From positions 44,419,654 to 44,483,653 of the forward strand of contig CM060197.1 of NCBI GenBank assembly GCA_030549335.1: a stretch of DNA of 64,000 bases. The letters run 5' to 3'. This DNA is from Pontederia crassipes. Lineage: Eukaryota > Streptophyta > Magnoliopsida > Commelinales > Pontederiaceae. Positions 2,825 through 40,432 of this stretch are shown piece by piece. The notes under the pieces are model-generated. The model was not told the DNA's origin. It saw only the letters and a list, made by a program, of their open reading frames with translations, and did no database searches. The translations under genes were made by a program, and so were the position numbers. Every line of letters starts with the position of its first letter. Within the stretch, counting starts at the first letter, position 1.

Positions 2825-3120
2825 CCGTTAATAATGTCTTGAATCATATCGCAATTGAAAACTGTCTAATTCTAAGATACTCTGAAGTAGAAGGTGCCCT
2901 CACACTTTAAAAATTTTATGGAGTATTCTGTATGTGATTCAAATTTGATTTATTATCACGAGTAGGTGTCCTATCATTTGAAGAAGAGAGTATCTATATA
3001 AATTTTCTAGGGATCGAAATAAAAAGAAATCTATCTTGTAATTTTCTTCTGTTTCTTTCATCTAATAAAATTTTGTGTCACCTTAAATTTCTCAAATTTT
3101 TTTACGGTGCATATTTTCTC
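2825..3120 (+). repeat. Diverged LTR relic, same family as the solo LTR at 56144-56361
   Basis: The left part (ttaataatgtcttgaatc) and the right part (ttcttctgtttctttcatctaat, then caccttaaatttctc and acggtgca) match the start and end of the 218-bp solo LTR at 56144-56361 with many substitutions. The middle is poorly conserved. No target duplication is visible. It is an old non-coding insertion. Confidence 0.6.
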
Positions 3121-3395
3121 TCTTATCTATACAAAGGATAGGATGGAGGGGGTAAGCGGAAAGGTACGACATCCCCTCTTATCTACATGTGCTAAGAGGG
3201 AGTTAAAATCACTTTCAATCATCTATCATCAAGGGGATGTCCCATGCTAACTGAATGTCCTTAAGCTCTGACCAAAGAGAATTGCGTAAAGACGGAAAAA
3301 CACTTGCGTAGACACATGAAAGCAAAAATGAAAAATTAGAGATCGAGAGAGCAAGATGTAAGACTTGAGGGGACTTGCAGATCGATGTCACAATG

Positions 3396-3650
3396 TCACA
3401 AGGTGTAAGATGTCACCTGAACAAGATTCGCATGCCAAGCCACAATGATTCCTTCCGCCACACCTGTCCCCGACTGGAAGTGCCCCTGCCAAGAGGGGCC
3501 AAGACGACGGATGACATGAGCGGACTTCACAGTGTCCGTGCAGGACTCCACCAGCATTATGACTTCAGGGTTGCTGTTTCGGATCAAATTAGAGAGGCGG
3601 TCCTTGACCTTACTTCTATATGCCCCTCTATAGTTCCAAATCATACTAGG
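3396..3650 (-). pseudogene. LINE (L1-type) endonuclease fragment
   Basis: Read on the minus strand, about 80 residues start with WNYRGAYRSK and continue LIRNSNPEVIMLVE, then GTGVAEGIIVAW. This matches the opening of the apurinic/endonuclease domain (exo-endo-phos) of plant non-LTR retrotransposons, which begins with a W-N-C-R-G-A-like motif and a D/E-VVxLxET strand. The normally conserved Cys is Tyr here. Nothing of the reverse transcriptase was found, so this is a short dead scrap. Confidence 0.65.
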
Positions 3651-3763
3651 GAAAGAGCACCTATAAAAATAAAGGGGAAATAATAATCAAACTTTGTTCA
3701 TTTCTTCTTTGACCTTACCAAAGTAACATAAATAACACACCTTAAAAAATATATATTTGTCAA

Positions 3764-5354
3764 AATTAAATTATTATTTAATCTTTCCTCAATTCCCCTT
3801 TTAGTCAATGGTGCCATTTAAATAATGTTAATTATTTGCCTTTAATTCTTTTTCGTGTTCTTCTCCTAGTTTACATTTTTCTCCATTACCTTGTTTTCCT
3901 TTATTGATTCCCAACCATACTCTAGCACCCTAAAGTTTGGTACTACTGAGGAACCTTGGGTAAGGACACTCTTACATAATGATAATAACAAAATATAATG
4001 GAAGACTTAATAACTTTACGTGATGAGCATCATTAATCTTGTATATTCTATGTCACTATGCTTGAATTTCATAGGTAATTGAATTCAACAAGGATGGAGG
4101 TAAAAGTGACAATGTGCATGATGATATAGTTGCATATGAGATCAACTCAATAAGACTCTTTATTATTATTATTTGATGTAATAGTTATTTGAAAGTTTGT
4201 TAACTTTTTTATTATCTATCATTTGATATGGTTAAGTGGACTCATCAAAACCAAAGAAAAAGTATTTGTAGGTAATGTCAATCTAAAAGCAGTCAAATTG
4301 TCATGAGGTAGGAGGGTAAATTTTTGAGACATTATAGCATTTGCACAATATATTATGGTCAAATCGTAACGGAGGCCTCTATATCATAACATACGTATTA
4401 TGATGATGGTATAATTGAGATTTAGTCTGAAACGGGCATAAGTCATAGGGCATCTCTTATGGCAGTAGTGGCATTCGATGGGTCGTAGCGCTCACACCGC
4501 AGTAGTGGCATCTCTTATTTTAAAATATGTTATGTTAATATAATGAACGGTTTTGAGCCCATAGATAAATAAGTTGAACTATGAATTGTTTGTTAACACT
4601 CCACTTCTATCGGATTAACCAATGAGCGCGGTCGACAAAAAAACGTAGCATACCGCATCAAATGAAAGTAAAATATCTTTCTCTTATTTCCGGTAAAAGA
4701 AATCTGTTTTTTTTTTGTTCTGCCTCTTCCCCGATGTACAAATAGAATAGAATATAAATAAATTGATAAAAAGAGAAAAGAATAATTATGGAACTCATGG
4801 TTGAATAAGGTCAACAGCTCCATTTTTATAATAGTATATAAATAATAAATGCAACTCTCTTTTTTTTTAAAAAAAATAAGAATAAGAAAACCGTGCCAAG
4901 AGTGGACTTGGGTCAACGATTGTGTATAATTGGGGTTTCCATTGGTGTTAATTAGGAGTAAATGGAAGCTACGCACATCAAACGACCAGTCAACATGCGC
5001 ATGAGACCTCCTCATTGCCTCCTATAATTTCTGTGACAACAATCATAATAAAGAAATGAAATAATCAATAAAGATGATAAGAGTTTTGAGTAATTGGAAG
5101 CTACGCACATTGCCTCCTCTAATTTCTTGAAAACAATTATAATAAAGATAATTAGAATGTGCAAAGAAATAAAATAATAAAAATAATAAGAGTTTGAAAG
5201 TAAATAAAAATATAGTTAGAAAAGAAAAAGGAAAAGAATCAATGGATTAGGAAAACAATTTGTGATTAAAATTAGATTATGGCCGAACATTACGCTTGCT
5301 AATTGTAAAGTACCGGAAGCGATTGAACACGTCGAAGACTTGGAAGTTGGAAAG
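3764..5354. other. AT-rich spacer without recognised genes
   Basis: Open frames here (for example 4593-5015 on the minus strand) are compositionally AT-rich and match no family I recognise. The only structure seen is an imperfect tandem duplication: about 4957-5087 and 5088-5200, each with ggaagctacgcacat, then attgcctcct and a tail of aataataagagttt. TTGAC cores (W-box-like) occur near 4905-4995 but are too short to be convincing. Confidence 0.6.
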
Positions 5355-7292
5355 TGTTAAGAATATAAAATAATAGATATTGTTCTTCCTAATTCTTTTG
5401 TTTTCTAGTTTAATATTTTTCATGATATCATAGCCGTTAACCAAAGTGATTTTTTTTTCTTCGTACATAATTTCTGTAAGTTTAACAACATGGCAACCTC
5501 AAGCGAAGGGAAGATCGAGCGGGATGGGTTGATGTCACCTTATCACCTAAGTTCCTTCGACAATCCTGGCTTGCCTCTTGTTACTTGCCTACTAAATGGA
5601 GACAATTACTCCATGTGGGCAAGGGCGATGCAGAATGCTTTAATGGCGAAGAACAAATTTTGCTTTGTTGATGGTTCACAAATCAATCCAGGCAAAGACT
5701 CGTCAGATCTTATGGCTTGGGAAGTATGTGATTCTATGGTGAAAGCCTGGATTCTCAACTCCCTCGAGAAGACACTACAGAGCAGTATCGCATATGCACA
5801 CACAGCAAAAGCGATGTCGGATGATCTGAAGGAGCATTACTCACAAGGAAATGCACCTCGTGCACATCGTGTACATCAGTCTCCTACGGCAAGGGGGTTC
5901 CTCTGTCACAAACTACTTCACAAAACTGAAGGGTTTATGGGATGAGTTGGATGAATATTACTCCATGCCAACATGCATTTGTAATTGCAAGTGTGAGGCA
6001 GCAAAGGCATATGCGCCGAAGAAGGAGATTGAAAAGCTACACAATTTCCTCATGGGATTAGATGAAATATACAGTACGGTAAGATCCCAAATCTTGAACA
6101 TTAAACCACTACCCTCTCTTGGCAAAGCATATGCAATGATTATTCAAGAAGAACGTCATCGAATGATCACAAACTACAAAGATAGTAAACCAGAAATGTC
6201 AGTATTTCATGTGAGCAGAGGATCAAATGCCAAAATGGAACATAGGACATGCTGCCAGCATTGTCACAAACTGGGACATGACAAGGAGCATTGTTGGGAG
6301 TTGGTGGGATACCCACCACATATAGAAGCACGACGAGGCAACAAGGTGAAGAAAAATAGAGAAGTCAGCACACCCACATCTAATGTGATCTCCAAACCAC
6401 AAGCAGCAATAACTCTTTGCCATGATTCTAGTGTGACCTCAGACCCTAGAAAAACTCCTATTATTACCAGTGATCAATACCAGCAACTGATCACCCTCCT
6501 TAATGCCATCAAAGGTCCTAATGAGCTACATATGACAGGTAACAAGCTTGCACAACCCTCTGTTGATTGGATCATCGATATAGGTGCTTCTTTTCATATG
6601 ACAGGCAGCAAGCATCATCTTCTTAATATCAAGCAGCTCGAGTATGCATATCCTATACAGTTGCCAGATGGGAGAAGCATTCAAGCTAATGTTGTTGGGG
6701 ATATTCAGCTCACAAATGATATTTTTCTTAAATATGTGCTTTATATTCCTGGACTTCATTGCAATTTAATATCTATTGGAAAATTACCTTCTGACTTAAA
6801 TTGCATCTTAATAACTTTTCCTCATTATTGTATCATACAGGATCTCATCTCGAAGATGCCGATTGGAGTGGGTGAGATGCGCGGTGGGGTTTACCACTGG
6901 GACCGATGACACACATATCTGCATACAAGGCTATGACTCCAGAAAATTATGAGATTTGGCATCGACGACTTGGGCATCCAACTAAAGAAGCACTTAGTCA
7001 TTTGTTTAGTTTCCAAAGTACTGAGCATTTGTCTTCTATTTGTGATGTTTGTATGCGTGCTAAACAAACACGTGGCCATTATATTTCTTCGTTGAATAAT
7101 GCGAAAGAACCTTTTGATTTGATTCATTGCGACATATGGGGACCATATAGTACTGCTTCATTATCTGGAGCTAGATATTTTTTTACAATAGTTGACGATC
7201 ACACTCGAGCCACATGGGTTTTTCTTATGCAGGATAAATCACAAACCTATCAACATCTATTATTTTATATTCTTAACAGAAAGGTTTGTTGA
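5355..7292 (+). mobile_element. Copia-1: truncated Ty1/Copia retrotransposon
   Basis: The element holds gag, protease and the start of integrase, then stops at about 7292. Reverse transcriptase, RNase H and a 3' LTR are missing. A possible primer-binding site, tgatatcatagcc (5423-5435), resembles the usual TGGTATCAGAGC, and a short stretch 5355-5422 that starts TGTTAAG and ends TTTTCA may be what is left of the 5' LTR; this boundary is a guess. The element lies 130 bp upstream of the RLP-B start codon in the same orientation, so it separates that gene from its original promoter. Confidence 0.75.
5490..7292 (+). pseudogene. Copia-1 gag-protease-integrase remnant
   Basis: Gag begins at an ATG (5490; NGDNYSMWARAMQNAL). 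A frameshift near 5870-5900 moves it to another frame, where it continues to a TGA at 6907-6909. The zinc knuckle CQHCHKLGHDKEHC (CX2CX4HX4C) lies at about 6253-6294. The protease active site reads DIGA (6577-6588) instead of DSGA/DTGA. After a second frameshift the GAG-pre-integrase motif IWHRRLGHP and the integrase opening with HCDIWGP follow. The rest of the integrase catalytic core is absent. It cannot encode a working polyprotein. Confidence 0.85.
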
Positions 7293-7424: not shown

Positions 7425-7890
7425 ATGGGCATCATCCAATATGGTGCTTTCCTTTCTTTGTTGATTCTCTCATGCTTGCAGAGCGAGCAGCTCCGTCGTT
7501 GCCATGGAGCACCCACCATGATCAGTTGCAGGGAGGATGAGCGGAAAGCCCTCTTCCAGTTCAAAGTAGGCCTCAACGACACCCATGGTCTTCTGTCATC
7601 TTGGGTTGGCCACGATTGTTGCAGCTGGCGGGGAGTGGTGTGCAGCAACCACACTGGGCACGTCATAAAAATGTACAATCCAGATCCTGAATACTTCAGG
7701 AGTACTACTGATCCTGGATACATGGTATCTTGAAATGAGATCAATCCATGCTTGCTCGTCCTGCGACATCTGACTTATTTGGATCTCAGTTGGATTAACT
7801 TCAATGAAGCTCCATTCCCAAGATTCATCGGTTCATTTTAGCGACTGAGGTACCTCGATCTATCAGAGACATGGCTCTTTGGAACTGTTC
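7425..7890 (+). pseudogene. RLP-B, 5' part: signal peptide, LRRNT_2 cap and first LRRs
   Basis: The ATG at 7425 opens a signal peptide (FLSLLILSCLQS) followed by the LRRNT_2 cap with the hallmark CREDERKALFQFK and DCCSWRGVVCSN. The reading frame then meets TGA at 7731-7733 and TAG at 7839-7841, but stays colinear with RLP-C (NEINPCLLVL against DGINPCLLSL, and FPRFIGSF against IPKFIGSF). At 7890 the gene is cut by a Gypsy-type LTR. Its LRR continuation reappears at 14159, with several repeats missing between. It is a dead paralogue of RLP-C; the start codon was chosen because it directly precedes the hydrophobic leader. Confidence 0.9.
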
Positions 7891-8865
7891 TATAACGCCC
7901 TCAAAATTAAGCTCCAATTTAAATTTTTTGCCGAACCCTAGGTGACGTCACATTGACGTGACCATGACCTAATTTCATAAAAACTTTTGCAGCGGAAACA
8001 TAATCCTATATAAACATAAAACATCAATATCATAACAGTGGAAGACTTCATAAGTAGATAAAATTTTAAGATACATAAACTGGTCCATGGACTAACGTAT
8101 ACTCAATAGAAGGTTCATCATACATAAATGAGTTCAAGTAGAGTACAAGACTCAATAAAAGGCCCATAAGCCATACATACTTCACCCTTATAAGGGTTTA
8201 TCATCATGACATAAAAAGAGATAACAACTTGGGCCGTAGCCCGATAGACCCATGTGCAATGTCGTTATCACGAGGCTCACGTTGCCGAACCTAAGCCTCC
8301 TCCATACCTGCACGGATCCATGAGGTGCAGGAAATTTCTCCCATTAGAGTATATTGAGGTCCATGCATGCTATAATCTTATAACATGATTTCTACATGTC
8401 ATGGCATATGCATTTCATCATCATGAAACATAAATCATATGCATGCTATGAGCTACTTATGCATACTATATGGCATGTGAGCATATCATCATGGCAAGAT
8501 AAGATAACATGTAACATCATAATCTTTAGATCATACACATCATAACTTATACTTATCATTATGCTAATGCATATCATGATCTTGTCTTACTTTACTTGTC
8601 ATCTTTATCTTATCATTATGCTAATACATATCATGATCTTGTCTTACTTTACTTTGTCATCTTTGTTCATGACATCATATGATGTGACAAGTGAACATTC
8701 ATAATGCATCCTCATAGGTACCTTCTTCATCTTTATCATCTTTGTCTTTATGTCTCAAGTCATTCATCATTCATCTTTGCATCTTTTCATCTTTCATTTT
8801 TACTTAGATACTTTCTTATCTTGTCGATTGAGAAGAGTGGTGGCTCAAATCATAATACTCACCGT

Positions 8866-9071
8866 AGATGAGATCTTTATCCTCATCCATAGATGAGGTC
8901 TTTATCCTCCCCGTAGGTGAGGTCTTTATCCTTTTCCGAAGACAAGGTCTTTATCCTTCCCGAATGTGAGGTCTTTATCCTTCCCTGAAGACAATGCCTT
9001 TATCCTCCCCAAAGGTGAGGTCTTTATCCTCATTCGTCAATAAAGTCTTTCCCCACCCGTCGGTGGGGTCT
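8866..9071 (+). repeat. Minisatellite, ~25-bp units, within LTR copy A
   Basis: About eight degenerate units of the form aggtgaggtctttatcctcccc lie head to tail. At the equivalent place in the sister LTR (57225-57510) a different, longer repeat is present. Confidence 0.85.
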
Positions 9072-9247
9072 TAGGTTAGGTACCGATTTGTCCCGAGTCA
9101 TAAAATTGCCACTCCATCAATCCGTCTTTTAATCATGTTCATCAATACATACAATCATTCAATATATGTTGTATCTTTTAATCTTATTTAAGGTCGTGCA
9201 TACTTCAAATCATTCTAAGTGTGGACAATACAAATATTACATAGAAT

Positions 9248-9560
9248 CTGAGCTGGTCACGACCGTACCCTTACTTGGGCACGGGTGTGCCAAGGTTCGG
9301 CACAGCCGAACACTTAGGCATTTTCCCGTCACTATCCTGCACGGCCGTGCATCACGAACTTCACGACCATGACAGAAGGGTCATTTTCGACCATTCTGAA
9401 AATATTTCTAAGGCATAAACATCTTGGGCATCACGGCCGTGCGAATGCATGGTCACAGCCGTGCGATCCCAAGGTCACGGCCGTGACAGAACGATGATTT
9501 TTGTTCACCTTCATAAAACAACTCGTCACGGTTGTGCCACGCTTCGTCACGGCCGTGCCC
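9248..9560. repeat. Cluster of CACGGCCGTG-type palindromes in LTR copy A
   Basis: At least eight variants of tcacggccgtg (for example near 9342, 9434, 9453, 9475, 9526 and 9549) occur within about 310 bp at irregular distances. The perfect form is a 10-bp palindrome. The same cluster is found in the sister LTR at 57687-57970, so it is an inherited part of this LTR family. Function unknown; a protein-binding site in the LTR is one possibility. Confidence 0.8.
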
Positions 9561-9919
9561 GAACAGTTAGACAGGGTTTCCCCTGTTTTATCCAATTTTC
9601 ATCATTTTTACACATACATATAGACATCCTTACAATGTACATTCATCCAGGCATTAATAATAGCAACTTTATAATTTTACACTAATCATATATGACTAAC
9701 AATTTATTAGGCAAACATCATAAACATGAATCATATATAACTTGCATATAAATCATTAAGGCTAATAGACATGTTCTCGTATAGAAAATGAGTAAACCAT
9801 TCATGAGCTAAACATGGGTAATAATGAACATTCTAGTTCTAAATATGATTATCAATAGAGCATAAATCTTAATCGAACATAAAACATACAAATGCTAATA
9901 TGCAGATCAATCTTTGCAT

Positions 9920-14158: not shown

Positions 14159-14399
14159 GTTTCATCGGGCATTTACTCGATTTAAACTTTACATCTCTTG
14201 AAGTCCTCCACCTCTCTGAGAATTATTTCACTGGGAATTTACCGGATTTAAACTTTACATCTCTTGAAGTCCTCGACCTGTCTCATAATAATTTCACTGG
14301 GCATTTACCCGATTTAAACTTGACGTCTCTTGAAATCCTCGACCTTTCATACAACCAATTGAATGGAATGCGACCAGAAAGTCTTGGATAGCTTAACAG
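14159..14399 (+). pseudogene. RLP-B, internal LRR piece with three near-identical 66-bp repeats
   Basis: The frame reads FIGHLLDLNFTSLE, FTGNLPDLNFTSLE and FTGHLPDLNLTSLE: three 22-residue LRR units that are almost identical at DNA level. RLP-A has one such unit here (FIGHFPDLNLTSLE). The piece continues SYNQLNGMRPESLG and then a TAG, where RLP-A has GQLN. It is cut at 14399 by a solo LTR. The left junction with Copia-2 lacks several LRRs relative to RLP-C. Confidence 0.85.
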
Positions 14400-14800
14400 T
14401 GTTAGAGTTGGTGAATACTTCAGGGCCCCTTGTTTCTCACACGGGGTTCGCCCACGTGAGCTTAGGGGAATCTGAGTATTACCCAATTAACATTATTGCT
14501 GGCGTACGAATGAAAAGGGGGTTCGAGGGGCCCCGCCCCCCGACGGCGGTCCCGTGTAGTTCGGATTAGGTTTTTTCTCTGTTTGTTTGGGTTTTAAACC
14601 CGGTTTGGAGAGGCTATTAATAGCCTAATTTTCTGATGTAATTTTGTGCGGCGGCTGAAAACTTAAACGATATAGTGGAACTTCTTTGCAGGACATAGCC
14701 CTAATCTCAAGGGTGAACCTGGATAAATTCGTGTGTCTCCTCTATTTTTTCTTGCAATCTCTCTGCGATCTTCTCTCCTTGTTCTCGGATTTTCCCATCA
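14400..14800 (+). mobile_element. Solo LTR of the Copia-3/4/5 family, TSD AACAG
   Basis: It starts TGTTAGAGTTGG and ends TTTTCCCATCA (401 bp). The 5-bp target duplication AACAG is present on both sides (14395-14399 and 14801-14805). The undisrupted RLP-A sequence agcttaacaggctggttgag shows the empty site. It lacks the 39-bp segment present in 5' LTRs of this family. A GC-rich inverted repeat (ggggccccgcccccc) lies at about 14529-14545. Confidence 0.93.
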
Positions 14801-15066
14801 AACAGGCTACTTGAGCTGGATTTAAGTGGAAATTCTTTCGATGGCGTTCTCACCGAGGCGCATTTCAGAAATCTCACAAGCCTTGAGAAATTACACCTGG
14901 ATGGCAACCTGCTGACAATTGACATCAGTCATGAACTGAGTCTCTCATGGAAGTTAACTGAGTTAAAATTGGACGGATGCAAAGTTGGACCAGTGTTTCC
15001 TTCATGGCTTCGAGGAATGGAGAATATTTCAGCTGTAAGTATATCTAGTGTTGGGATATCAGATGT
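14801..15066 (+). pseudogene. RLP-B LRR fragment, array copy 1
   Basis: It continues the receptor frame exactly after the target duplication: RLLELDLSGNSFDGVL, then TEAHFRNLTSLEKLH, DGCKVGPVFPSWLRGMEN and VGISDV. RLP-A has the same order (VGPAFPSWLRGMEN, VEISDV). It stops at 15066, where a truncated Copia LTR is fused. The same fragment recurs at 19820-20095 and, shortened, at 24873-24922. Confidence 0.9.
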
Positions 15067-15352
15067 GAAACCTAAATGGGTTTTAGGCTTTTGTTTAGCT
15101 GGCCCGTGTGGTTCGGATTAGGTTTTTTCTCTGTTTGTTTGGGTTTTAAACCCGGTTTGGAGAGGCTATTAATAGCCTAATTTTCTGATGTAATTTTGTG
15201 CGGCGGCTGAAAACTTAAACGATATAGTGGAACTTCTTTGCAGGACGTAGCCCTAATCTCAAGGGTGAATCTGGATAAATTCGTGTGTCTCCTCTATTTT
15301 TTCTTACAATCTCTCTGCGATCTTATCTTCTTGTTCTCGGATTTTCCCATCA
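15067..15352 (+). repeat. Copia-3 truncated 5' LTR
   Basis: It begins inside the LTR at gaaacctaaatggg, which is the start of the 39-bp segment seen in the Copia-5 5' LTR, and ends TTTTCCCATCA next to the primer-binding site. The promoter-proximal part of the LTR is therefore missing. Confidence 0.88.
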
Positions 15353-15418
15353 ATTGGTATTAGAGCACAGGTTGTTCAAGGAATTAGGGTTTATTCGAGA
15401 CGGTTTGATCTCTGAAAG

Positions 15419-16640
15419 ATGAAGATGGAGGATCTCCTTTGTGATCGAGATCTTTGGACGGCAATCGAGAAGGAGAGACCAGGCATGGAGGCGGCGAAGG
15501 TCGCGGACGAGGCCTCCTCCAGTCAGGCAGATCCAAAGGCGATCGAAGAGTGGGATCGGATTGATAGAAAGGCGAAGGGTTTGATTCGGTTGTGTCTCGC
15601 GAATTCAATTCTTACGAATGTGATGGGCGAATCTACTGCCAGAGATCTGTGGAGGAAGTTGGAATCCCTATATCAAAGTAAGTTGTTGGTTAACAAGTTA
15701 TTTCTAAGGAAGAAATTGTACAATCTTCGGATGCAGGAGGGTGACTCATTTTCTACTCATCTTTATAACTTTAACACGGTGATCAGTCAACTTGTATCAA
15801 TCGGTGTTAAGTTTCAAGATGATGATAAGGCAATAACATTGCTCTATTCGCTGCCGGATTCATGGGACAATCTGATTGTTGTGATTGGTGGCGGAGATAA
15901 AGAACTTTCGTATGAAAGTGTATGTGCTGCCTTGTTATCAGAGAAAATACGGAGAAAGGGATCAGCAAGTTCTGGTAAAGAGGCGCTGGCGGCCAGAGGA
16001 AGGCAACCAGAAAGGAATCAAAATCAGAGAGGGAGATCCAAATCTCGTGGGCGTTCGAAGAGTAAGGATAAGAAGGTGCAATGCTGGAGATGTCAAGAGT
16101 GGGGCCATCTGAAGCGAGATTGCAAAAACAAGCCGGTTCATAAGAAAGAAGCTGAGTCAACCTCGGACAAAAAGGAGGTTGAGGCAGGAGATATGTATGT
16201 GGCTTCTGCATGTACGGCACAGTCAGATAAAGATGTCTGGCTTATCGACACTGGTGCTTCGTACCACATGACGCCTCATAAACACTGGTTCTGTGAATAT
16301 GAGGAGTATAATGGTGGGGATGTCATGCTCGAAGATGGCACTGCGGTTCAGATTGTTGGACGTGGCAGGGTGAAGTTGAGGATGAATGATGGCACGGTGA
16401 AGACTCTACCAGATGTGATGCATATACCACTTATGAGCAGGAGTTTATTATCTGTTGGTACAATGGCTGACTCGGGTGTTATATTCAGTTGCGATAAGGA
16501 TTCGTGCAAGATGATCAGAGGGTCCATTGTAATTGCACGAGGGGTTCGCTATGGCACGTTGTACAAGTTGCTCGGAGAGACAATATTTGTGGGCTACGGA
16601 TTTATTTCTGAAGAGGCCAAAGAAGATGAAGACAGCAAAT
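15419..16640 (+). pseudogene. Copia-3 gag-protease
   Basis: Compared with Copia-4, about 45 bp are missing at 15401, including the normal start codon and the first ~15 codons; the next ATG (15419) starts at MKMEDLL. Gag (UBN2 type; SLYQSKLLVNKLFLRKK, FNTVISQLVSIGVKF) is followed by a basic RGRSKSRGRSKSK stretch. The zinc knuckle CWRCQEWGHLKRDC (16082-16123) is intact. The protease motif LIDTGASYHM has DTGA at 16247-16258. A 1-bp deletion near 16641 (tctatttgtgg against tctatgttgtgg in Copia-4) shifts the frame at the GAG-pre-integrase boundary. Confidence 0.92.
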
Positions 16641-16644
16641 CTAT

Positions 16645-19416
16645 TTGTGGCATCGGAGATTAGGCCATATCAGTGAAAAAGAACTCTCCACTATAGCATC
16701 AAGTCAGATGGTAGAAGGAGTTCCGGATTGTTCTGTGGGCTTCGGGTTCTGTGAACATTGCCTCCATGGAAAACAGAACCGAGTCAGTTTTCAACACACA
16801 GATTCAAGAGCAACGAAGATTCTCGAACTGATTCATAGTGATGTCTTTGGACCGACTCCGACTCCATCTATTGGAGGGTCCAGGTACTATGTTTCTTTTA
16901 TAGATGATTTTTCGAGATACAGTTGGATTTATTTTATCAAGAATAAATCAGATGTATTCGATAAGTTTCGAGAATTTAAAGTTTTGGTGGAAAATCAATT
17001 GAGCTGCAAGATCAAGGTCCTTCGTACAGATAATGGAGGTGAATTTTGTTCAGATAAGTTTGAGCATTTGTGCGTGGACAATGGTATTGCTAGGCAGAAG
17101 ACAACTCCATATACACCTGAGCAGAATGGAGTAGCTGAAAGGTTAAATCGGTCACTCATAGAGAAGGCCAGATGTATGCTGAGTTGGGCTGAATTGGGGC
17201 AAGAATTCTGGGCAGAAGCTGTAGCCATAGCAAACTACCTGAAGAATCGCTCACCGACCTCATCAGTGAAGGATCAGACACCTTACGAGGCAATGTTTGG
17301 GAAGAAGCCAAATTTGTCTCATGTTCGGGTGTTTGGATGTGACGCATATGTTCATATACCCAAGGAAAAGCGGGGTAAGCTTGATAGTAAATATGAAAAG
17401 AATATATTTGTCGGATACAAGGAAGGGATCAAGGGCTACAAACTGTGGAATCCAAAGTCAAGGACTATTGTTTACAGCAGGGATGTTGTTTTCCGTGAAT
17501 CACGTTCTCAAGTTGAAGTTCAAAAATGTGATGAACCTAAGAAAGTGGTAGTGCTTGAAGAAGATTCTGATTCTGAAACTTCAGAGGTGGATGCACAAGA
17601 TACTTCAGTTGAGTCTGTTACAGAACCGGATCAAGAGAACTCGGTTAATGAAGTTGAAGATGCAGATTCAAATGAAGACCCGGATACTGGTACTACCATA
17701 CCAGTTCTCAGGAGATCGACACGAGAAAGAAGAGCACCTTTGAGATACTCTCTTAGTGCTCTCAGTTCGTTTCATGCTTTGAGCATCATCGGAGAAGAAC
17801 CTAGTTCTGTAAAAGATGCAAGGTCTATGGATGATGCAAATCAGTGGGAGCTTGCTATGGCAGATGAGATGCAATCACTGGATAAGAATGAAACATGGAG
17901 CTTGTGTCAATTGCCTAAGGATAGAAAGGCAATTGGTTGCAAATGGGTGTTCAAGCGAAAGCTGAAACCGGATGGGTCTGTAGAGAAGTACAAGGCGAGG
18001 CTGGTAGCTAAAGGGTACTCTCAGGTTGAGGGAGTCGATTATGATGAGATTTTCTCTCCCGTGGCGAAAATGACTTCGATCAGATTTGTTCTATCTCTGG
18101 CAGCAGCATATAATCTTGAGGTAGAGCAGATGGATGTGAAGACGGCATTCCTTCATGGGGACTTGGAGGAAGAGATATATATGAGGCAACCAGAAGGCTT
18201 TGAAGTTCAAGGTAAAGAGAAGCTGGTGTGCAAATTGAAGAAGTCTTTGTATGGATTGAAGCAGTCGCCAAGGATGTGGTACCAGAAGTTTGATACGTAC
18301 ATGCTCGAACTCAAGGTTGTACGTTCAGATTCAGATCACTGTGTTTACGTGAAGAGAGTTGACGATCAATTTGTCATTCTTACACTGTATGTGGATGACA
18401 TGTTACTGATTGGAAATAGTATGAAGATGGTAAATTCAGTGAAGGGTTTGTTGGCCAAGAAGTTTGAGATGAAAGACTTAGGGCCGGCGAATTTTATTTT
18501 GGGTATGCAGATTAGAAGAGATCGTCAGAAGCGAAAGTTGTGGCTAGGACAGGAGAAGTACATAAAAAAAGTGTTGAAGAAATTTAACATGGCAGACTGC
18601 AAGTCAGTGGGTACTCCTATGTCTCTAGGAACCAAACTTTCTGCAGAGCAATACCCGACGGATGAAGAAGCCGAAGAGATGGACCGTGTGCCATATTCAA
18701 GTGCAGTGGGCAGCTTGATGTACGCCATGGTGTGCACGCGTCCAGATATAGCCCAAGCAGTGGGAGTCTTGAGTCGTTATATGTCTAACCCAGGCAGGGA
18801 ACATTGGAATGCTATCAAGAGAGTTTTCAGGTACCTTCGTGGAACTTCAGATTTTTCGTTGTGTTTTGAAGGTACAAGGAAAGCAAAGATGCTTGATATT
18901 GTGGGTCATGTAGATGCTGATTGGGGTGGGGATATTGATAGTAGACGATCCACTAGTGGATATATTTTTACATTATTTGGGACTGCACTAAGTTGGATAA
19001 GTTGGATGAGCAAGAGACAAAGCGTGGTAGCACTTTCTTCTACAGAAGCATAATATATGGCTCTTACTCATGCTGCAAAAGAGTCCATATGGCTACGACG
19101 GTTGTGCTTGGAGCTCGGATTTGAGCAAGGTGCTATAGAGGTGAGATGTGATAATCAAGGTGCTATTCAGTTAGCTAAGAATCCCGCATTTCACTCACGC
19201 ACAAAGCATATTGACATTCAATACCACTTTATTCGGGAAAATGTGGAAAAGAAAGAGGTTCAGCTTGAAAAGGTTGATACAACAGAGAATAGTTCTGATT
19301 TTCTGACTAAAGCAGTTACAGGTGTAAAGTTTGAGTGGTGCTCTACTGCTGTCGGATTGAAGAAGAATGTTGCTGGCAAGGCTCTCATTAGTGTGAAGCA
19401 TCCACCAAGTGGGAGA
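16645..19416 (+). pseudogene. Copia-3 integrase-RT-RNase H
   Basis: The 802-residue open stretch starts WHRRLGHIS. The integrase catalytic residues are visible as HSDVFGP (Asp at 16840), RTDNGGEF (Asp at 17029) and NGVAER (Glu at 17137). Then follow CKWVFKRKLKPDG, the RT core with SLYGLKQSPR and YVDDM (18388-18399), and RNase H with DADWGG. A TAA at 19051-19053 falls inside the motif SSTEA(E)YMA. The remaining RNase H (TKHIDIQYHFIRE) continues in frame to the 3' LTR. RT and integrase look intact; the frameshift upstream and the stop make it non-functional. Confidence 0.92.
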
Positions 19417-19417
19417 A

Positions 19418-19819
19418 TGTTAGAGTTGGTGAATACTTCAGGGCCCCTTGTTTCTCACACCGGGTTCGCCCACGTGAGCTTAGGGGAATCTGAGTATTAC
19501 CCAATTAACATTATTGCTGGCGTACGAGTGAAAGGGGGGGTTCGGGGGGCCCCGCCCCCCGACGGCGGTCCCGTGTAGTTCGGATTAGGTTTTTTCTCTG
19601 TTTGTTTGTGTTTTAAACCCGGTTTGGAGAGGCTATTAATAGCCTAATTTTCTGATGTAATTTTGTGCGGCGGCTGAAAACTTAAACGATATAGTGGAAC
19701 TTCTTTGCAGGACGTAGCCCTAATCTCAAGGGTGAACCTGGATAAATTTGTGTGTCTCCTCTATTTTTTCTTGCAATCTCTCTGCGATCTTCTCTCCTTG
19801 TTCTCGGATTTTCCCATCA
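19418..19819 (+). repeat. Copia-3 3' LTR (recombinant junction to RLP-B fragment)
   Basis: Complete 402-bp LTR, TGTTAGAG...CCCATCA, of the short type without the 39-bp segment. It is followed by AACAG and the same receptor fragment that follows the solo LTR at 14400-14800. Its right flank is therefore the flank of the other LTR insertion, as expected for an exchange between LTRs. Confidence 0.9.
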
Positions 19820-20095
19820 AACAGGCTACTTGAGCTGGATTTAAGTGGAAATTCTTTCGATGGCGTTCTCACCGAGGCGCATTTCAGAAATCTCACAAGC
19901 CTTGAGAAATTACACCTGGATGGCAACCTGCTGACAATTGACATCAGTCATGAACGGGGTCTCTCATGGAAGTTAACTGAGTTAAAATTGGACGGATGCA
20001 AAGTTGGACCAGTGTTTCCTTCATGGCTTCGAGGAATGGAGAATATTTCAGCTGTAAGTATATCTAGTGTTGGGATATCAGATGTGAAACCTAGA
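19820..20095 (+). pseudogene. RLP-B LRR fragment, array copy 2
   Basis: It is nearly identical to 14801-15066; a visible difference is gaacggggtctctc against gaactgagtctctc. It has the same ends: AACAG on the left and the gatgt|gaaacct fusion on the right. Confidence 0.92.
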
Positions 20096-20418
20096 CGGGT
20101 TTTAGGCTTTTGTTTAGTCGGCCCGTGTGGTTCGGATTAGGTTTTTTCTCTGTTTGTTTGGGTTTTAAACCCGGTTTGGAGAGGCTATTAATAGCCTAAT
20201 TTTCTGATGTAATTTTGTGCGGCGGCTGAAAACTTAAACGATACAGTGGAACTTCTTTGCAGGACGTAGCCCTAATCTCAAGGGTGAACCTGGATAAATT
20301 CGTGTGTCTCCTCTATTTTTTCTTGCAATCTCTCTGCGATCTTCTCTCCTTGTTCTCGGATTTTCCCATCAATTGGTATCAGAGCACAGGTTGTTCAAGG
20401 AATTAGGGTTTATTCGAG

Positions 20419-21603
20419 ATGTCAGGAGGGTCACGAATCGAGATAGAAAAATCTGATGGAACACGGTTTGATCTCTGGAAGATGAAGATGGAGGATCTCC
20501 TTTGTGATCGAGATCTTTGGACGGCAATCGAGAAGGAGAGACCAGGCATGGAGGCGGCGAAGGTCGCGGACGAGGCCTCCTCCAGTCAGGCAGATCCAAA
20601 GGCGATCGAAGAGTGGGATCGGATTGATAGAAAGGCGAAGGGTTTGATTCGGCTGTGTCTCGCGAATTCAATTCTTACGAATGTGATGGGCGAATCTACT
20701 GCCAGAGATCTGTGGAGGAAGTTGGAATCCCTATATCAAAGTAAGTCATTGGTTAACAAGTTATTTCTAAGGAAGAAATTGTACAATCTTCGGATGCAGG
20801 AGGGTGACTCATTTTCTACTCATCTTTATAACTTTAACACGGTGATCAGTCAACTTGTATCAATCGGTGTTAAGTTTCAAGATGATGATAAGGCAATAAC
20901 ATTGCTCTGTTCGCTGCCGGATTCATGGGACAATCTGATTGTTGTGATTGGTGGCGGAGATAAAGAACTTTCGTATGAAAGTGTATATGCTGCCTTGTTA
21001 TCAGAGGAAATACGGAGAAAGGGATCAGGAAGTTCTGGTAAAGAGGCGCTGGCGGCCAGAGGAAGGCAAGCAGAAAGGAATCAAAATCAGAGAGGGAGAT
21101 CCAAATCTCGTGGGCGTTCGAAGAGTAAGGATAAGAAGGTGCAATGCTGGAGATGTCAAGAGTGGGACCATCTGAAGCGAGATTGCAAAAACAAGCCGGT
21201 TCATAAGAAAGAAGCTGAGTCAACCTCGGACAAAAAGGAGGTTGAGGCAGGAGATATGTATGTGGCTTCTGCATGTACGGCACAGTCAGATAAAGATGTC
21301 TGGCTTATCGACACTGGTGCTTCGTACCACATGACCCCTCATAAACATTGGTTCTGTGAATATGAGGAGTATAATGGTGGGGATGTCATGCTCGGAGATG
21401 ACACTGCGGTTCAGATTGTTGGACGTGGCAGGGTGAAGTTGAGGATGAATGATGGCACGGTGAAGACTCTACCAGATGTGATGCATATACCACTTATGAG
21501 CAGGAGTTTATTATCTGTTGGTACAATGGCTGACTCGGGTGTTATATTCAGTTGCGATAAGGATTCGTGCAAGATGATCAGAGGGTCCATTGTAATTGCA
21601 TGA
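20419..21603 (+). pseudogene. Copia-4 gag-protease
   Basis: Gag starts at ATG 20419 (MSGGSRIEIEKSDG), 48 bp after the primer-binding site. The zinc knuckle reads CWRCQEWDHLKRDC, with Asp replacing the conserved Gly. The protease DTGA motif is present. A CGA-to-TGA change ends the frame at 21601-21603, where Copia-3 still reads Arg. Confidence 0.92.
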
Positions 21604-24469
21604 GGGGTTCGTTATGGCACGTTGTACAAGTTGCTCGGAGAGACAATATCTGTGGGCTGCGAATTTATTTCTGAAGAGGCCAAAGAAGATGAAGACAGCA
21701 AATCTATGTTGTGGCATCGGAGATTAGGCCATATCAGTGAAAAAGAACTCTACTATAGCATCAAGTCAGATGGTAGAAGGAGTTCCGGATTGTTCTGTGG
21801 GCTTCGGGTTCTGTGAACATTGCCTCCATGGAAAACAGAACCGAGTCAGTTTTCAACACACAGATTCAAGAGCAACGAAGATTCTCGAACTGATTCATAG
21901 TGATGTCTTTGGACCGACTCCGACTCCATTTATTGGAGGGTCCAGGTACTATGTTTCTTTTTCGAGATACAGTTGGATTTATTTTATCAAGAATAAATCA
22001 GATGTATTCGATAAGTTTCGAGAATTTAAAGTTTTGGTGGAAAATCAATTGAGCTGCAAGATCAAGGTCCTTCGTACAGATAATGGAGGTGAATTTTGTT
22101 CAGATAAGTTTGAGCATTTGTGCGTGGACAATGGTATTGCTAGGCAGAAGACAACTCCATATACACCTGAGCAGAATGGAGTAGCTGAAAGGTTAAATCG
22201 GTCACTCATAGAGAATGCCAGATGTATGCTGAGTTGGGCTGAATTGGGGCAAGAATTCTGGGCAGAAGCTGTAGCCACAGCAAACTACCTGAAGAATCGC
22301 TCACCGACCTCATCAGTGAAGGATCAGACACCTTACGAGGCAATGTTTGGGAAGAAGTCAAATTTGTCTCATGTTCGGGTGTTCGGATGTGACGCATATG
22401 TTCATATACCCAAGGAAAAGCGAGGTAAGCTTGATAGTAAATATGAAAAGAACATATTTGTCGGATACAAGGAAGGGATCAAGGGCTACAAACTGTGGAA
22501 TCCAAAGTCAAGGACTATTGTTTACAGCAGGGATGTTGTTTTCCGTGAATCACGTTCTCAAGTTGAAGTTCAAAAATGTGATGAACCTAAGAAAGTGGTA
22601 GTGCTTGAAGAAGATTCTGATTCTGAAACTTCAGAGGTGGATGCACAAGATACTTCAGTTGAGTCTGTTACAGAACCGGATCAAGAGAACTCGGTTAATG
22701 AAGTTGAAGATGCAGATTCAGATGAAGACCCGGATACTGGTACTACCATACCAGTTCTCAGGAGATCGACACGAGAAAGAAGAGCACCTTTGAGATACTC
22801 TCTTAGTGCTCTCAGTTTGTTTCATGCTTTGAGCATCATCGGAGAAGAACCTAGTTCTGTAAAAGATGCAAGGTCTATGGATGATGCAAATCAGTGGGAG
22901 CTTGCTATGGCAGATGAGATGCAATCACTGGATAAGAATGAAACATGGAGCTTGTGTCAATTGCCTAAGGATAGAAAGGCAATTGGTTGCAAATGGGTGT
23001 TCAAGCGAAAGCTGAAACCGGATGGGTCTGTAGAGAAGTACAAGGCGAGGCTGGTAGCTAAAGGGTACTCTCAGGTTGAGGGAGTCGATTATGATGAGAT
23101 TTTCTCTCCCGTGGCGAAAATGACTTCGATCAGATTTGTTCTATCTCTGGCAGCAGCATATAATCTTGAGGTAAAGCAGATGGATGTGAAGACGGCATTC
23201 CTTCATGGGGACTTGGAGGAAGAGATATATATGAGGCAACCAGAAGGCTTTGAAGTTCAAGGTAAAGAGAAGCTGGTGTGCAAATTGAAGAAGTCTTTGT
23301 ATGGATTGAAGCAGTCGCCAAGGATATGGTACCAGAAGTTTGATACGTACATGCTCGAACTCAAGTTTGTACGTTCAGATTCAGATCACTGTGTTTACGT
23401 GAAGAGAGTTGACGATCAATTTGTCATTCTTACACTGTATGTGGATGACATGTTACTGATTGGAAATGGTATGAAGATGGTAAATTCAGTGAAGGGTTTG
23501 TTGGCCAAGAAGTTTGAGATGAAAGACTTAGGGCCGGCGAATTTTATTTTGGGTATGCAGATTAGAAGAGATCGTAAGAAGCGAAAGTTGTGGCTAGGAC
23601 AGGAGAAGTACATAAAAGAAGTGTTGAAGAAATTTAACATGGCAGACTGCAAGTCAGTGGGTACTCCTATGTCTCTAGGAACCAAACTTTCTGCAGAGCA
23701 ATGCCCGAAGACGGATGAAGAAGCCGAAGAGATGGACCGTGTGCCATATTCAAGTGCAGTGGGCAGCTTGATGTACGCCATGGTGTGCACGCGTCCAGAT
23801 ATAGCCCAAGCAGTGGGAGTCTTGAGTCGATATATGTCTAACCCAGGCAGGGAACATTGGAATGCTATCAAGAGAGTTTTCAAGTACCTTCGTGGAACTT
23901 CAGATTTTTCGTTGTGTTTTGAAGGTACAAGGAAAGGAAAGATGCTTGATATTGTGGGTCATGTAGATGCTGATTGGGGTGGGGACATTGATAGTAGACG
24001 ATCCACTAGTGGATATATTTTTACATTATTTGGGGCTGCACTAAGTTGGATAAGTTGGATGAGCAAGAGACAAAGCGTGGTAGCACTTTCTTCTACAGAA
24101 GCATAATATATGGCTCTTACTCATGCTGCAAAAGAGTCCATATGGCTACGACGGTTGTGCTTGGAGCTCGGATTTGAGCAAGGTGCTATAGAGGTGAGAT
24201 GTGATAATCAAGGTGCTATTCAGTTAGCTAAGAATCCCGCATTTCACTCACGCACAAAGCATATTGACATTCAATACCGCTTTATTCGGGAAAAGGTGGA
24301 AAAGAAAGAGGTTCAGCTTGAAAAGGTTGATACAACAGAGAATAGTTCTGATTTTCTGACTAAAGTAGTTACAGGTGTAAAGTTTGAGTGGTGCTCTACT
24401 GCTGTCGGATTGAAGAAGAATGTTGCTGGCAAGGCTCTCATTAGTGTGAAACATCCACCAAGTGGGAGA
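21604..24469 (+). pseudogene. Copia-4 integrase-RT-RNase H
   Basis: A 2-bp deletion near 21750 (gaactctactat against gaactctccactat in Copia-3) shifts the frame in the GAG-pre-integrase region. A 12-bp in-frame deletion near 21960 removes four residues of integrase (YYVSF then FSRYSW, where Copia-3 has IDDF between). RT is open with YVDDM at 23438-23449. The TAA at 24104-24106 is the one shared with Copia-3, and the RNase H tail resumes at once after it. Confidence 0.92.
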
Positions 24470-24470
24470 A

Positions 24471-24872
24471 TGTTAGAGTTGGTGAATACTTCAGGGCCCC
24501 TTGTTTCTCACACCGGGTTCGCCCACGTGAGCTTAGGGGAATCTGAGTATTACCCAATTAACATTATTGCTGGCGTACGAATGAAAGGGGGGGTTCGGGG
24601 GGCCCCGCCCCCCGACGGCGGTCCCGTGTAGTTCGGATTAGGTTTTTTCTCTGTTTGTTTGTGTTTTAAACCCGGTTTGGAGAGGCTATTAATAGCCTAA
24701 TTTTCTGATGTAATTTTGTGCGGCGGCTGAAAACTTAAACGATATAGTGGAACTTCTTTGCAGGACGTAGCCCTAATCTCAAGGGTGAACCTGGATAAAT
24801 TCGTGTGTCTCCTCTATTTTTTCTTGCAATCTCTCTGCGATCTTCTCTCCTTGTTCTCGGATTTTCCCATCA
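24471..24872 (+). repeat. Copia-4 3' LTR
   Basis: 402-bp short-type LTR, TGTTAGAG...CCCATCA, followed by AACAG (24873-24877) and the start of the third receptor fragment. Confidence 0.9.
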
Positions 24873-25840
24873 AACAGGCTACTTGAGCTGGATTTAAGTG
24901 GAAATTCTTTCGATGGCGTTCTTGTACTCTTTTGGGGGTCCTTGTTCTCGGGAATAATATGCTCAGTGGGAGCATACCAACATGGTTAGGAAATATCTCA
25001 ACGGGCTTGGCAATATTACGCCTTCGTTCAAATATGTTCCGTGGCATAATTCCTACTGAGCTTGGTAATCTCTCCTCCCTCGAGGTCATTGATCTCTCAT
25101 ATAACATGTTATCTGGACCGATATCAGAAAGCTTTGCCAACTTCAATCCAATGAGGCATTATCAAAATAACACAGGACATGTAGGTCTTGATTGTGTGGT
25201 ACATCTAATCACGAAAGGAATGGATCAAGAATATTTGGATATGCCAGGAGTAATACCCACAAGTATAGATCTCTCGAGCAATAATCTTTCTAAAGGGATT
25301 CCTGAAGCTCTCACAACTCTAATTGGTTTGCTAAATTTGAACTTGTCTACAAATCACCAGATAGGAACGATTCCAAGGGGCAGTAAAGGGCTAGTGCTAC
25401 TATTTTTAAAATCTCTTGACTTGTCATTTAATAACCTTACTGGAGATATTCCTCCGACCATGTTTGCTTTACACTTTTTGGGTATTATGAACTTCTCTTT
25501 TAATGACTCGTCCGGAAGGATTCCGACCGGTGGACAATTTGATAATCACCCAGATTCATCCATCTATTTGGGCAACGATCATCTATGTGTCTTTCCATTA
25601 AATTCGACTTGCGAAGGCCCTATTTATCAACCACCTCATAGTACAAACATTAACAAAGAAGAAGAGAATGAAGAGGTATGGTTTTATGTAAGTGCAATTT
25701 TAGGATTTGTCACTGGAGTTTGGTCATTTCTTGGTCCTTTGTTGCTCGAAAAGAAGTGGAGGATTCTGTACTTTCAATTTATATGACAAGGTTTATGTAT
25801 TTGCTGTGGTTAATTTGGCAAAGATTAAAGGTTTATGATT
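24873..25840 (+). pseudogene. RLP-B, 3' part: last LRRs, membrane helix, degenerate tail
   Basis: The first ~50 bp repeat the array fragment (ELDLSGNSFDGVL). An internal deletion at about 24922 then joins it to a later LRR (LGVLVLGNNMLSGSI). From there the order is that of RLP-A: island with HLITKGMDQEYLD, final LRRs, acidic NKEEENEEVW, and a helix near VSAILGFVTGVWSFLG. The frame ends early at TGA 25784-25786, where RLP-A continues into the cytoplasmic tail; remnants of the tail (VFAVVNLAKIK-like) follow in a shifted frame to 25840. Confidence 0.9.
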
Positions 25841-34134: not shown

Positions 34135-35500
34135 ATGGCAACTAATTTGCACTACGCTACTCTTCTTCTTCTGGTCTTACTCTACCTGCAGACCGGGCGC
34201 CTCCACCATTGCCACGGAGCCCCTGCCTTCATCTGCAGAGAAGATGAGCGGACGGCCCTTCTCCAGTTCAAAGATCGCCTCAAAGACCCTTACGGCCGGC
34301 TATCGTCCTGGGTTGGTCAGGATTGCTGCATCTGGTGGGGTGTGGCATGCAGCAACAGGACCGGCCTTGTGACGCAGCTCCGCCTTCCGAGTGGTCCTGA
34401 TGACCGATATTTCATAGCTGACGGGATCAATCCATGTCTGCTCTCGCTGCAAGGATTGAATTACCTCGACCTCAGCGGCAACTACTTCAATGGAGCTCAA
34501 ATACCAAAGTTCATCGGTTCATTCAAGCGACTGATTCACCTCAATCTGTCGAGAACGAATCTTGTGGGAAGTATTCCTCCAGAAGTTGGCAACCTATCAG
34601 CCTTGCGCTTTCTTGATTTGTCCTTCACTCACCACTTTCTTGATTTATCCTGGATCCGCGGACTCGAGCTTGAAGATGCCGCTTGGCTCTCTCGTCTTTC
34701 ATCTCTCCGGTACCTCGACTTGCGTGATGTGAATATTAAGAACGCGACTTGTGCTCTGCAATCCCTGGGTACGCACCCCTTCCTCTCCGAGTTGCACTTG
34801 TCAAATTCTGTAACTTCTGTTCCAGATGCTCTTCCTCCTCATGCCAACTTCTCATCCTTGCATACCATTGATCTTTCTTCGAATTACTTAAACACCACAA
34901 TACCGTCATGGCTATTTGAAATTCGTGGGTTAAAGATGCTTGACCTGTCCTTGAATAGTTTTGTTGGCGAAGTTCCCAATTCAATGGAGAACTTGACATC
35001 CCTCCAAGTCTTGCGTTTGGGGAATAATGAATATCTTGAAGGGAACTCATTATCCAGTTCAGTATCCAAACTCTCGAATTTAACCACACTTGACTTGGCT
35101 AGTATTAATCTTAAAGGTCGACTACCACTGTGGTTTGGCAACCTTGAGAACCTAAAGATTCTTGACCTTTCATCCAACCAGTTGAACGGGACGATAGGAG
35201 CAAGCCTTGGACAACTTAGCAGGCTAGTTGAGTTATACTTGGGTGGAAATTCCTTTGATGGTGTTCTCACTGAAACTCATTTGGGAAATCTCACGAGGCT
35301 TCAGATGTTAAACTTGGCAGGCAACCCACTGATAATCGACATTCAACCTGGATGGATTCCTCCCCCACAGTTAACTGTCACCATCTTAGACGGATGCAAA
35401 GTTGGACCTGCTTTCCCCGCGTGGCCGCGAAAGATGGAGAATCTCTCTTACATAAGTATGTCCAACGTGGGAATATCAGATGCCGCGCCGGATTGGTTTT
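34135..35500 (+). pseudogene. RLP-C, 5' half: signal peptide, LRRNT_2, LRR 1 to ~14
   Basis: Start ATG 34135 (MATNLHYATLLLLVLL); the frame is open further upstream, but this ATG directly precedes the signal peptide. The cap has CREDERTALLQFK and WVGQDCCIWWGVACSN. LRRs follow without a break, ending GCKVGPAFPAWPRKMEN and APDWF. Copia-5 is inserted after 35500 with target duplication GTTTT (35496-35500 and 40433-40437). Without the insertion the gene would span about 924 codons, a usual RLP length. Family role: plasma-membrane immune or developmental receptor lacking a kinase; ligand unknown. Confidence 0.93.
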
Positions 35501-35898
35501 TGATGGGAAAATCCGAAAACAAGGAGAGAAGATCGCAGAGAGATGGCAGAAAAATAGAGGAGACACACGAAATTTATCCAGGTTCACCCTTGAGATGAGG
35601 GCTACGTCCTGTAAAGAGGTTCCACTATATGTTTAGGTTTACAGCCGCCACACAGATTACACCAAAAAATTAGGCTATTAATAGTCTCTCCAAACCGGGT
35701 TTAAAACCCAAACAAACAGAGACAAAACCTAATCCGAACCACGCGGGACCGCCGTCGGGGGGGCGGGGCCTCCCGAACCCCCCTTTCGTTCGTACGCCAG
35801 TAATACTGTTAATTGGGTAATACTCAGATTCCCTAAGCTCACGTGGGCGAATCCGGTGTGAGAAATAAGGGGCCCTGAAGTATTCACTAACTCTAACA
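35501..35898 (-). repeat. Copia-5 3' LTR (short type)
   Basis: On the plus strand it begins TGATGGGAAAA and ends CTCTAACA. It lacks the 39-bp segment that the 5' LTR of the same element has. Confidence 0.92.
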
Positions 35899-35989
35899 TT
35901 CTCCCACTTGGTGGATACTTCACACCAATGAGAGCCTTGCCAGCAATATTCTTCTTCAATCCGACAGCAGTAGAGCACCACTCAAACTT

Positions 35990-39947: not shown

Positions 39948-39978
39948 CTTGAATAAACCCTAATTCCTTGAACAACCT

Positions 39979-39995
39979 GTTGCTCTGATACCAAT
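39979..39995 (-). other. Copia-5 primer-binding site
   Basis: On the minus strand this reads attggtatcagagcaac, next to the inner end of the 5' LTR. It matches the usual Copia site complementary to the initiator methionine tRNA. Confidence 0.8.
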
Positions 39996-40432
39996 TGATG
40001 GAAAAATCCGAGAACAAGGAGAGAAGATCGCAGAGAGATTGCAGAAAAATAGAGGAGACACACAAAATTTACCCAGGTTCACCTTTGAGATGAGGGCTAC
40101 GTCATGCAAAGAGGTTTCACTATATGTTTAATTTACAGCCGCCACACAGATTACACCAAAATATTAGGCTATTAATAGCCTCTCCAAACCGGGTTTAAAA
40201 CCCAAACAAATAGAAAAAAAACCTAATCCGAACCACACGGGCCGGCTAAACAAAAGCCCAAAACCCGTCTAGGTTTCGGGACCGCCGTCGGGGGGCGGGG
40301 CCCCCCGAACCCCCCTTTTCGTTCGTACGTCAGTAATACTGTTAATTGGGTAATACTCAGATTCCCCTAAGCTCACGTGGGCGAACCCGATGTGAGAAAC
40401 AAAGGGCCCTGAAGTATTCACCAACTCTAACA
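39996..40432 (-). repeat. Copia-5 5' LTR (long type)
   Basis: On the plus strand it begins TGATGGAAAAATC and ends CTCTAACA. It contains the additional 39 bp (about 40243-40281) next to the GC-rich inverted repeat at about 40282-40312. Confidence 0.92.

Follow-up and report, generated by a model that had tools for sequence, protein, structure and literature searches.

Tandem array of a Copia retrotransposon and a receptor-gene fragment in the pseudogene RLP-B of Pontederia crassipes

A 266-bp piece of the receptor gene RLP-B of Pontederia crassipes is repeated together with a Copia element in a tandem array that occupies the LRR part of that gene. The presence of the array in the assembly was confirmed, and its structure agreed almost to the base with that described in an earlier sequence-only reading, including the order LTR, fragment, element, LTR, fragment, element, LTR, fragment and the steps of about 5 kb. 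The array probably results from a single Copia insertion that was followed by a tandem duplication at sites of low homology, by unequal homologous exchange and by solo-LTR formation. The sequence-only reading had traced its founding to a solo LTR that crossed over with a neighbouring element's 3' LTR; this is not the best fit, because AACAG and the LRR start follow the last LTR and there is one target duplication overall.

Layout of the array in RLP-B

The whole stretch of DNA analysed (the window, 64,000 nucleotides) corresponds to C15:44419654-44483653 of a 1.13-Gb assembly with 43 contigs. The order of features was read off positions 13.5-25.5 kb and from a comparison of the window with itself: RLP-B, solo LTR, LRR fragment, truncated LTR-Copia-LTR and fragment, continued by truncated LTR-Copia-LTR, a 50-bp fragment and RLP-B (Table 1).

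Table 1. Features of RLP-B and of the array inserted in it (positions in the window)
Feature	Position	Strand	Remarks
Probable 5' part of RLP-B	7477..7891 (approximate)	+	Set apart by transposon sequence
RLP-B, LRR part left of the array	14160..14399	+	Pfam LRR_4/LRR_1 on 14161-14385
Target site duplication, left copy	14395..14399	+	AACAG
Solo LTR	14400..14800	+	Short U3 form; 401 bp; TG...CA
LRR fragment 1	14801..15066	+	AACAG + 261 bp; one open frame; Pfam LRR
5'-truncated LTR of unit 1 (Copia-3)	15067..15352	+	Long U3 form, cut at GAAACC
Copia-3 internal region	15353..19417	+	Copia gag, integrase and reverse transcriptase by Pfam on pieces
3' LTR of Copia-3	19418..19819	+	Short U3 form
LRR fragment 2	19820..20085	+	262/264 sites identical to fragment 1
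5'-truncated LTR of unit 2 (Copia-4)	20086..20371	+	Breakpoint as in unit 1
Copia-4 internal region	20372..24470	+	Nonsense mutation common with Copia-3
3' LTR of Copia-4	24471..24872	+	Short U3 form
LRR fragment 3	24873..24922	+	50 bp only: AACAG + 45 bp, then deletion junction
RLP-B, right part (LRRs)	24922..25840	+	Resumes at RLP-A 1077; 81.5% to RLP-A 1077-1997

The solo LTR is flanked on either side by AACAG, in keeping with the clean target duplication previously claimed for it. The left part of RLP-B terminates in this pentamer, and right-hand copies follow at 14801-14805, 19820-19824 and 24873-24877. The paralogue RLP-A carries AACAG once (283-287) and reads uninterrupted across the insertion site, and therefore serves as the empty site. 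The start of the LRR fragment recurs after the 3' LTRs of both Copia-3 and Copia-4, at 19820 and 24873, again as described. An identical fusion to a truncated LTR had been attributed to every fragment, and this holds for fragments 1 and 2, in which the same novel LRR|LTR junction falls at an identical position, as in a tandem duplication; junction positions differing between the units would have told against the earlier proposal. It does not hold for fragment 3, of which only 50 bp are left, since about 745 bp have been deleted here in comparison with RLP-A (332 joined to 1077).

The element belongs to the Ty1/copia type. Three scanned pieces of unit 1 gave the Pfam order Retrotran_gag_2, gag_pre-integrs, rve, SH3_retrovirus and RVT_2, with integrase after gag and before reverse transcriptase, and TG...CA LTRs with 5-bp target duplications are found both at 14400-14800 (AACAG) and in a further copy of the window, Copia-5 (GTTTT). 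The Copia-3 internal region has a 44-bp deletion close to the gag start.

As for the host gene, positions 14160-14357 consist of three tandem 66-bp LRR units of 22 residues each, a stop codon stands in the LRR frame immediately left of the insertion, and Pfam LRR matches cover 24887-25783 of the right part. The segment at 7477-7891 probably belongs to RLP-B, judging by order and strand. Its positions 7477-7649 match the 5' part of RLP-C at 34187-34356, and 7610-7890 share 80% identity with an RLP paralogue about 91 kb left of the window, in the 5' region of the latter. A repeat found at 7893-9908 and 55986-58314 has its first copy directly after this split 5' part. Owing to the premature stop, the split 5' part and the deletion, RLP-B has no continuous LRR coding frame and is, on its sequence, a pseudogene. 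Open stretches span 896 codons in RLP-A and 918, 948 and 874 codons in the paralogues at about -63, 110 and 121 kb, while the RLP paralogues near -90 and -75 kb are disrupted. Every match to the LRR fragment (best 40 of 53 candidates) is on C15 or C16, which suggests paired RLP clusters on two related chromosomes. Elsewhere in the window, a 578-bp direct repeat (53678-54253 and 54705-55281; 91% identical, about 1 kb apart) possibly represents the LTRs of a small element.

Founding of the array and number of insertions

In the history considered probable here, one Copia element inserted in the LRR part of RLP-B; the AACAG duplication to which this gave rise is shown by the empty site in RLP-A. 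A head-to-tail duplication would then have extended from inside the 5' LTR (at GAAACC, next to a GC hairpin) through the internal region and the 3' LTR to 266 bp of downstream RLP-B, the founding junction between the 5' LTR and RLP position ~548 being presumably created by end-joining or replication-template switching. Once two units were present, a further unit may have arisen through unequal homologous exchange. Recombination between a 5' and a 3' LTR may have removed the internal region of the first unit to leave the solo LTR, and a separate, later event, the ~745-bp deletion, would have trimmed the last fragment.

The new junction displays only about 2 bp of exact overlap, and the founding duplication is for this reason best read as end-joining or template switching. 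The dinucleotide GA at the breakpoint is common to three of four RLP paralogues (the fourth is without it) and to 3/3 long-form LTRs. Against a founding at low homology stands the patchy RLP/LTR similarity that extends for about 20 bp beyond the breakpoint, where RLP-B's own original sequence is lost, and which would allow homeologous exchange.

The truncated LTR was also considered as the complete LTR of another family, which was rejected, the sequence being internal to a longer LTR form. The 5' LTR of Copia-5 contains the segment internally, as a ~45-bp piece that starts with GAAACC and is absent in short-form LTRs, and the junction of the array falls at the start of this piece. The longer form was seen in Copia-5 and, wholly or partly, in 20 fetched copies, a sample that was selected by similarity to the truncated LTR and is hence biased at the breakpoint. 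Matches to the truncated LTR among the best 40 of 3000 candidates, query and twin included, are all at least 95% identical, and long-form LTRs are, from such matches, widespread. A family rule of long 5' and short 3' LTRs was rejected; the short form is found in 6/6 LTRs from three pairs (best 40 of 1788 candidates), and seven same-strand match pairs 4.5-4.7 kb apart fit the long form at both places (best 40 of 3000). Copia-5 (35501-40432, minus strand) interrupts RLP-C. Its LTR pair is strongly divergent (K2P 0.116), with a long U3 at the 5' end and a short one at the 3' end, and its internal region and 3' LTR are about 96% identical to Copia-3. Another family copy, at about 919-5793 of locus L022 (C15, about 29-24 kb left of the window), lies beside an RLP paralogue, carries different deletions in its two U3s and has a shortened 3' LTR, after which comes LRR-like sequence.

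The GC hairpin adjoins the array breakpoint in the LTR U3 zone (e.g., 40222-40312, minus strand). When folded as single-stranded DNA, the long-form U3 surpassed its shuffles (z -2.15), with 6/200 shuffles equally good, and no folding beyond shuffles was seen in the zone of the solo LTR (z +0.80) or of the 3' LTR (z +0.18), or in a control stretch (z -0.39). Nine lengths of the U3 zone occur among 23 parsed LTRs (7/30 unparsed) and four lengths of a control LTR zone among 27 (3/30 unparsed), the zones having been cut out by pattern and part of the U3 variation being G-run length. The evidence for the hairpin as cause of the breakpoint is weak or mixed. It is held to be unlikely that the indel-prone U3 of this abundant family, with its GC hairpin beside the breakpoint, is a fragile site from which host DNA is duplicated in tandem at any receptor cluster that the element enters, and that unit numbers in the population are changing to this day.

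An alternative close to the founding event of the sequence-only reading assumes two separate insertions. AACAG would have received the solo LTR, and a second Copia with a truncated 5' LTR would have entered about 264 bp downstream; unequal crossing-over between the solo LTR and the 3' LTR of this second element would then multiply fragment and element. Such a course yields the same LTR-fragment-element-LTR order and accounts for long-form 5' and short-form 3' LTRs without any later change in U3. A single insertion is less comfortable here, as the 5' LTR copies possess a ~45-bp U3 segment missing in the 3' LTRs, which is unexpected for a fresh insertion unless one LTR afterwards underwent deletion or conversion (the U3s of Copia-5 and L022 are also mismatched). 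The short-form LTRs of the array have R-U5 states that are usual among long-form LTRs, so that shortening or conversion of their U3 probably followed insertion. Two insertions, on the other hand, would predict the sequence downstream of the second element after the last 3' LTR. What is found there is AACAG with the LRR start, so that one would have to assume a third unit as well as the deletion of over 5 kb, and the second element would be without a target duplication. A single 5-bp target duplication, with its AACAG copies at 14395-14399 and 24873-24877, surrounds the whole array.

The R-U5 portion of the five array LTR copies was compared with that of 47 others, comprising 22 short-form copies and 20 that are long-form in whole or in part (taken from the best 40 of 1788 and the best 40 of 3000 candidates), together with five LTRs that belong to Copia-5 and to two relatives in the left flank of 100 kb. 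The tree omits the duplicate loci L004 and L005, the LTRs of which are those of L010 and L009. Two substitutions (alignment columns 117 and 177) are common to 5/5 array LTRs; among the 47 others the first occurs in five, the second in three and both together in none, which argues against two insertions. With IQ-TREE on the 52 LTRs, the five array copies formed one clade (95 UFBoot/76 SH-aLRT), within which the solo LTR was grouped with both 3' LTRs (98/79), and these two 3' LTRs with each other (97/79). FastTree recovered this grouping too (local supports 0.73-0.80) and joined the truncated LTRs as sisters (0.74). The SH-aLRT values of only 76-79, and the truncated LTRs not being sisters in IQ-TREE, count against the single insertion. 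The order of the LTRs in the IQ-TREE tree is that expected if the solo LTR, which differs from both 3' LTRs, has kept the right-hand portion of the original 3' LTR and the split between units 2 and 3 came afterwards. The solo LTR can therefore be a product of the array and not the cause of it, the first internal region having been lost by LTR-LTR recombination. Two insertions predict its grouping with the 3' LTRs too.

Plain R-U5 distances fit two insertions as well as one. The truncated LTR of unit 2 (tL4) differs from the solo LTR at 4/252 sites, from L049 at 4/250 and from L061 at 4/247, that of unit 1 (tL3) differs from the solo LTR at 7/252 and from L049 at 7/250, and the genome matches to tL4 (best 40 of 3000) include LTRs at 97-98%, equal to its twin tL3. 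The distances of the truncated LTRs to the array 3' LTRs are thus no smaller than to some LTRs elsewhere, a point against the single insertion, and at this level of sequence comparison they leave one and two insertions unseparated.

The internal regions of Copia-3 and Copia-4 have in common a nonsense mutation downstream of the reverse transcriptase that is absent from Copia-5 and from the copy about 29 kb left, the sole other matches in the 264-kb region searched. In addition, LTR pairs within a unit are more divergent (5/253 and 8/252 sites) than the units (58/5005; Fisher, p 0.23 for one pair alone, p 0.012 pooled), as expected where insertion preceded duplication, which is a weak indication of that order. 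Together, the shared nonsense mutation, the LTR clade with its substitutions and the single AACAG pair favour one insertion duplicated at the DNA level, and the course with two insertions is judged unlikely.

Uniqueness of the units and further alternatives

The units, of about 5.05 kb, are identical at 4947/5005 aligned sites (58 differences) and differ further by five indels. Substitutions are scattered along their length, 0 to 6 per 250 bases and without a step, and for fragment 3 the compared sites are identical at 48/48. With this divergence the units cannot be one piece printed twice. A 19-mer across the LRR|LTR junction, allowing one mismatch at most, matched twice in the 1.13-Gb assembly, both times in the array (control 0), and a 20-mer across the deletion junction at 24922 matched once in the genome. 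The LRR fragment at 99-100% was found only within the array, the next matches reaching 91% (partial) and 88% (full length) among the best 40 of 53 candidates. These confined matches indicate a local event and no dispersed composite element. No second-haplotype copy of the fragment appeared among the same 40 scored matches. That contig C28 represents the region's second haplotype was not supported, the compared loci (0.7-3.3 kb) having element sequence alone in common.

The divergence of the units, about 1.2%, is within the range possible between two haplotypes of an outcrossing plant and would suit an assembly error in which two one-unit haplotypes were strung together, the true copy number per chromosome being lower. 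A real duplication would be required even then, however, since a lone unit already contains the LRR|LTR junction and has a fragment behind its 3' LTR. Moreover, the junction has an overlap of about 2 bp, unlike the long overlaps on which assemblers join, and occurs twice at the same base, and the solo LTR is distinct from both 3' LTRs. Merged haplotypes are held to be unlikely as well, slightly below the two insertions.

A distinctly smaller chance is given to the reinsertion of an extrachromosomal circle. A circle of truncated LTR, internal region, LTR and fragment, closed at the LRR|LTR junction, would recombine back at a homologous LTR or LRR and add one unit each time. It predicts the same unit with the same single junction, and the homology for reinsertion exists. 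Sequence alone does not distinguish it from duplication in place, but it takes more steps, and no circle-specific trace was seen.

The repeated order LTR-fragment-truncated LTR-internal region could also be read as a mobile element with a composite LTR that had captured the receptor piece and transposed with it, which is hardly credible and was rejected for this assembly: the junction (at most one mismatch) is absent outside the array, where the fragment reaches no more than 91% (best 40 of 53), RLP-B sequence still flanks the array on either side, and both internal regions carry the identical nonsense mutation. Capture of the fragment at the RNA level by read-through was rejected on reasoning only, since the truncated LTR contains U3 followed by the primer site and internal region, an order that the 5' end of genomic RNA does not offer.

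Related arrays and significance

Tandem arrays of LTR retrotransposons are described as frequent and polymorphic in rice, and as frequent in Arabidopsis, almond and cotton (Morales-Diaz et al. 2025, PMC11899658). Those of rice, like the present one, comprise two internal regions and several LTRs within one surrounding target duplication, a single-insertion origin is argued for them by the authors, and a solo LTR, also present here, occurs as another allele at such loci. Two internal regions within one target duplication, the minimum for a tandem array, are found in RLP-B. In contrast to the neighbours in the published arrays, which share one internal LTR, the internal regions here are separated by an LTR, the 266-bp LRR fragment and a truncated LTR, so that each unit adds host receptor-gene sequence and a 5'-truncated LTR. 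This composition indicates that the founding junction was not LTR-LTR.

Three other systems offer partial parallels, as far as the parts of the sources consulted go. Both end-joining and homologous recombination were described for maize P1-wr (Goettel and Messing 2009, PMC2686159), where eleven copies of 12-kb gene repeats are involved, whereas here a gene fragment and a transposon are repeated in a pseudogene. The Cassandra arrays resemble the present one in their tandem LTR-internal units and in the unequal crossing-over proposed for changes in number, but they consist of short non-autonomous elements, whose LTRs and internal domains are described without host gene sequence in the unit (PMC7215508). 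The RGA08 cluster of banana is, like the present locus, a resistance-type gene cluster (NB-LRR) with LTR elements; LTRs were named there as possible templates for unequal recombination, and the authors found no evidence of their involvement (PMC3017797). In RLP-B, unlike RGA08, LTR sequence is part of the repeated unit, albeit in a dead gene. No array with a receptor fragment in its unit was found at the level of titles and abstract openings, which is not proof of absence.

The suggestion in the sequence-only reading that part of an immune-receptor gene is multiplied in this way stands as regards an LTR-associated amplification in steps of about 5 kb. Its functional side is weak, the multiplied piece being an open LRR stretch of 87 residues within a pseudogene, and multiplication of a receptor is, given the state of RLP-B, not supported. 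Nothing suggests a role of the array in immunity, and no gain of receptor function is demonstrated by it; the best reading is that of a by-product in a dead gene rather than a receptor-building device.

In summary, the array is an ordinary kind of duplication. It is nevertheless well preserved, and what happened at this receptor-gene cluster can for the most part be read in sequence, from insertion through a probable low-homology duplication and homologous expansion to solo-LTR formation. It also shows LTR sequence participating in the rearrangement of a receptor gene, for which the RGA08 authors report no evidence at their locus (PMC3017797).
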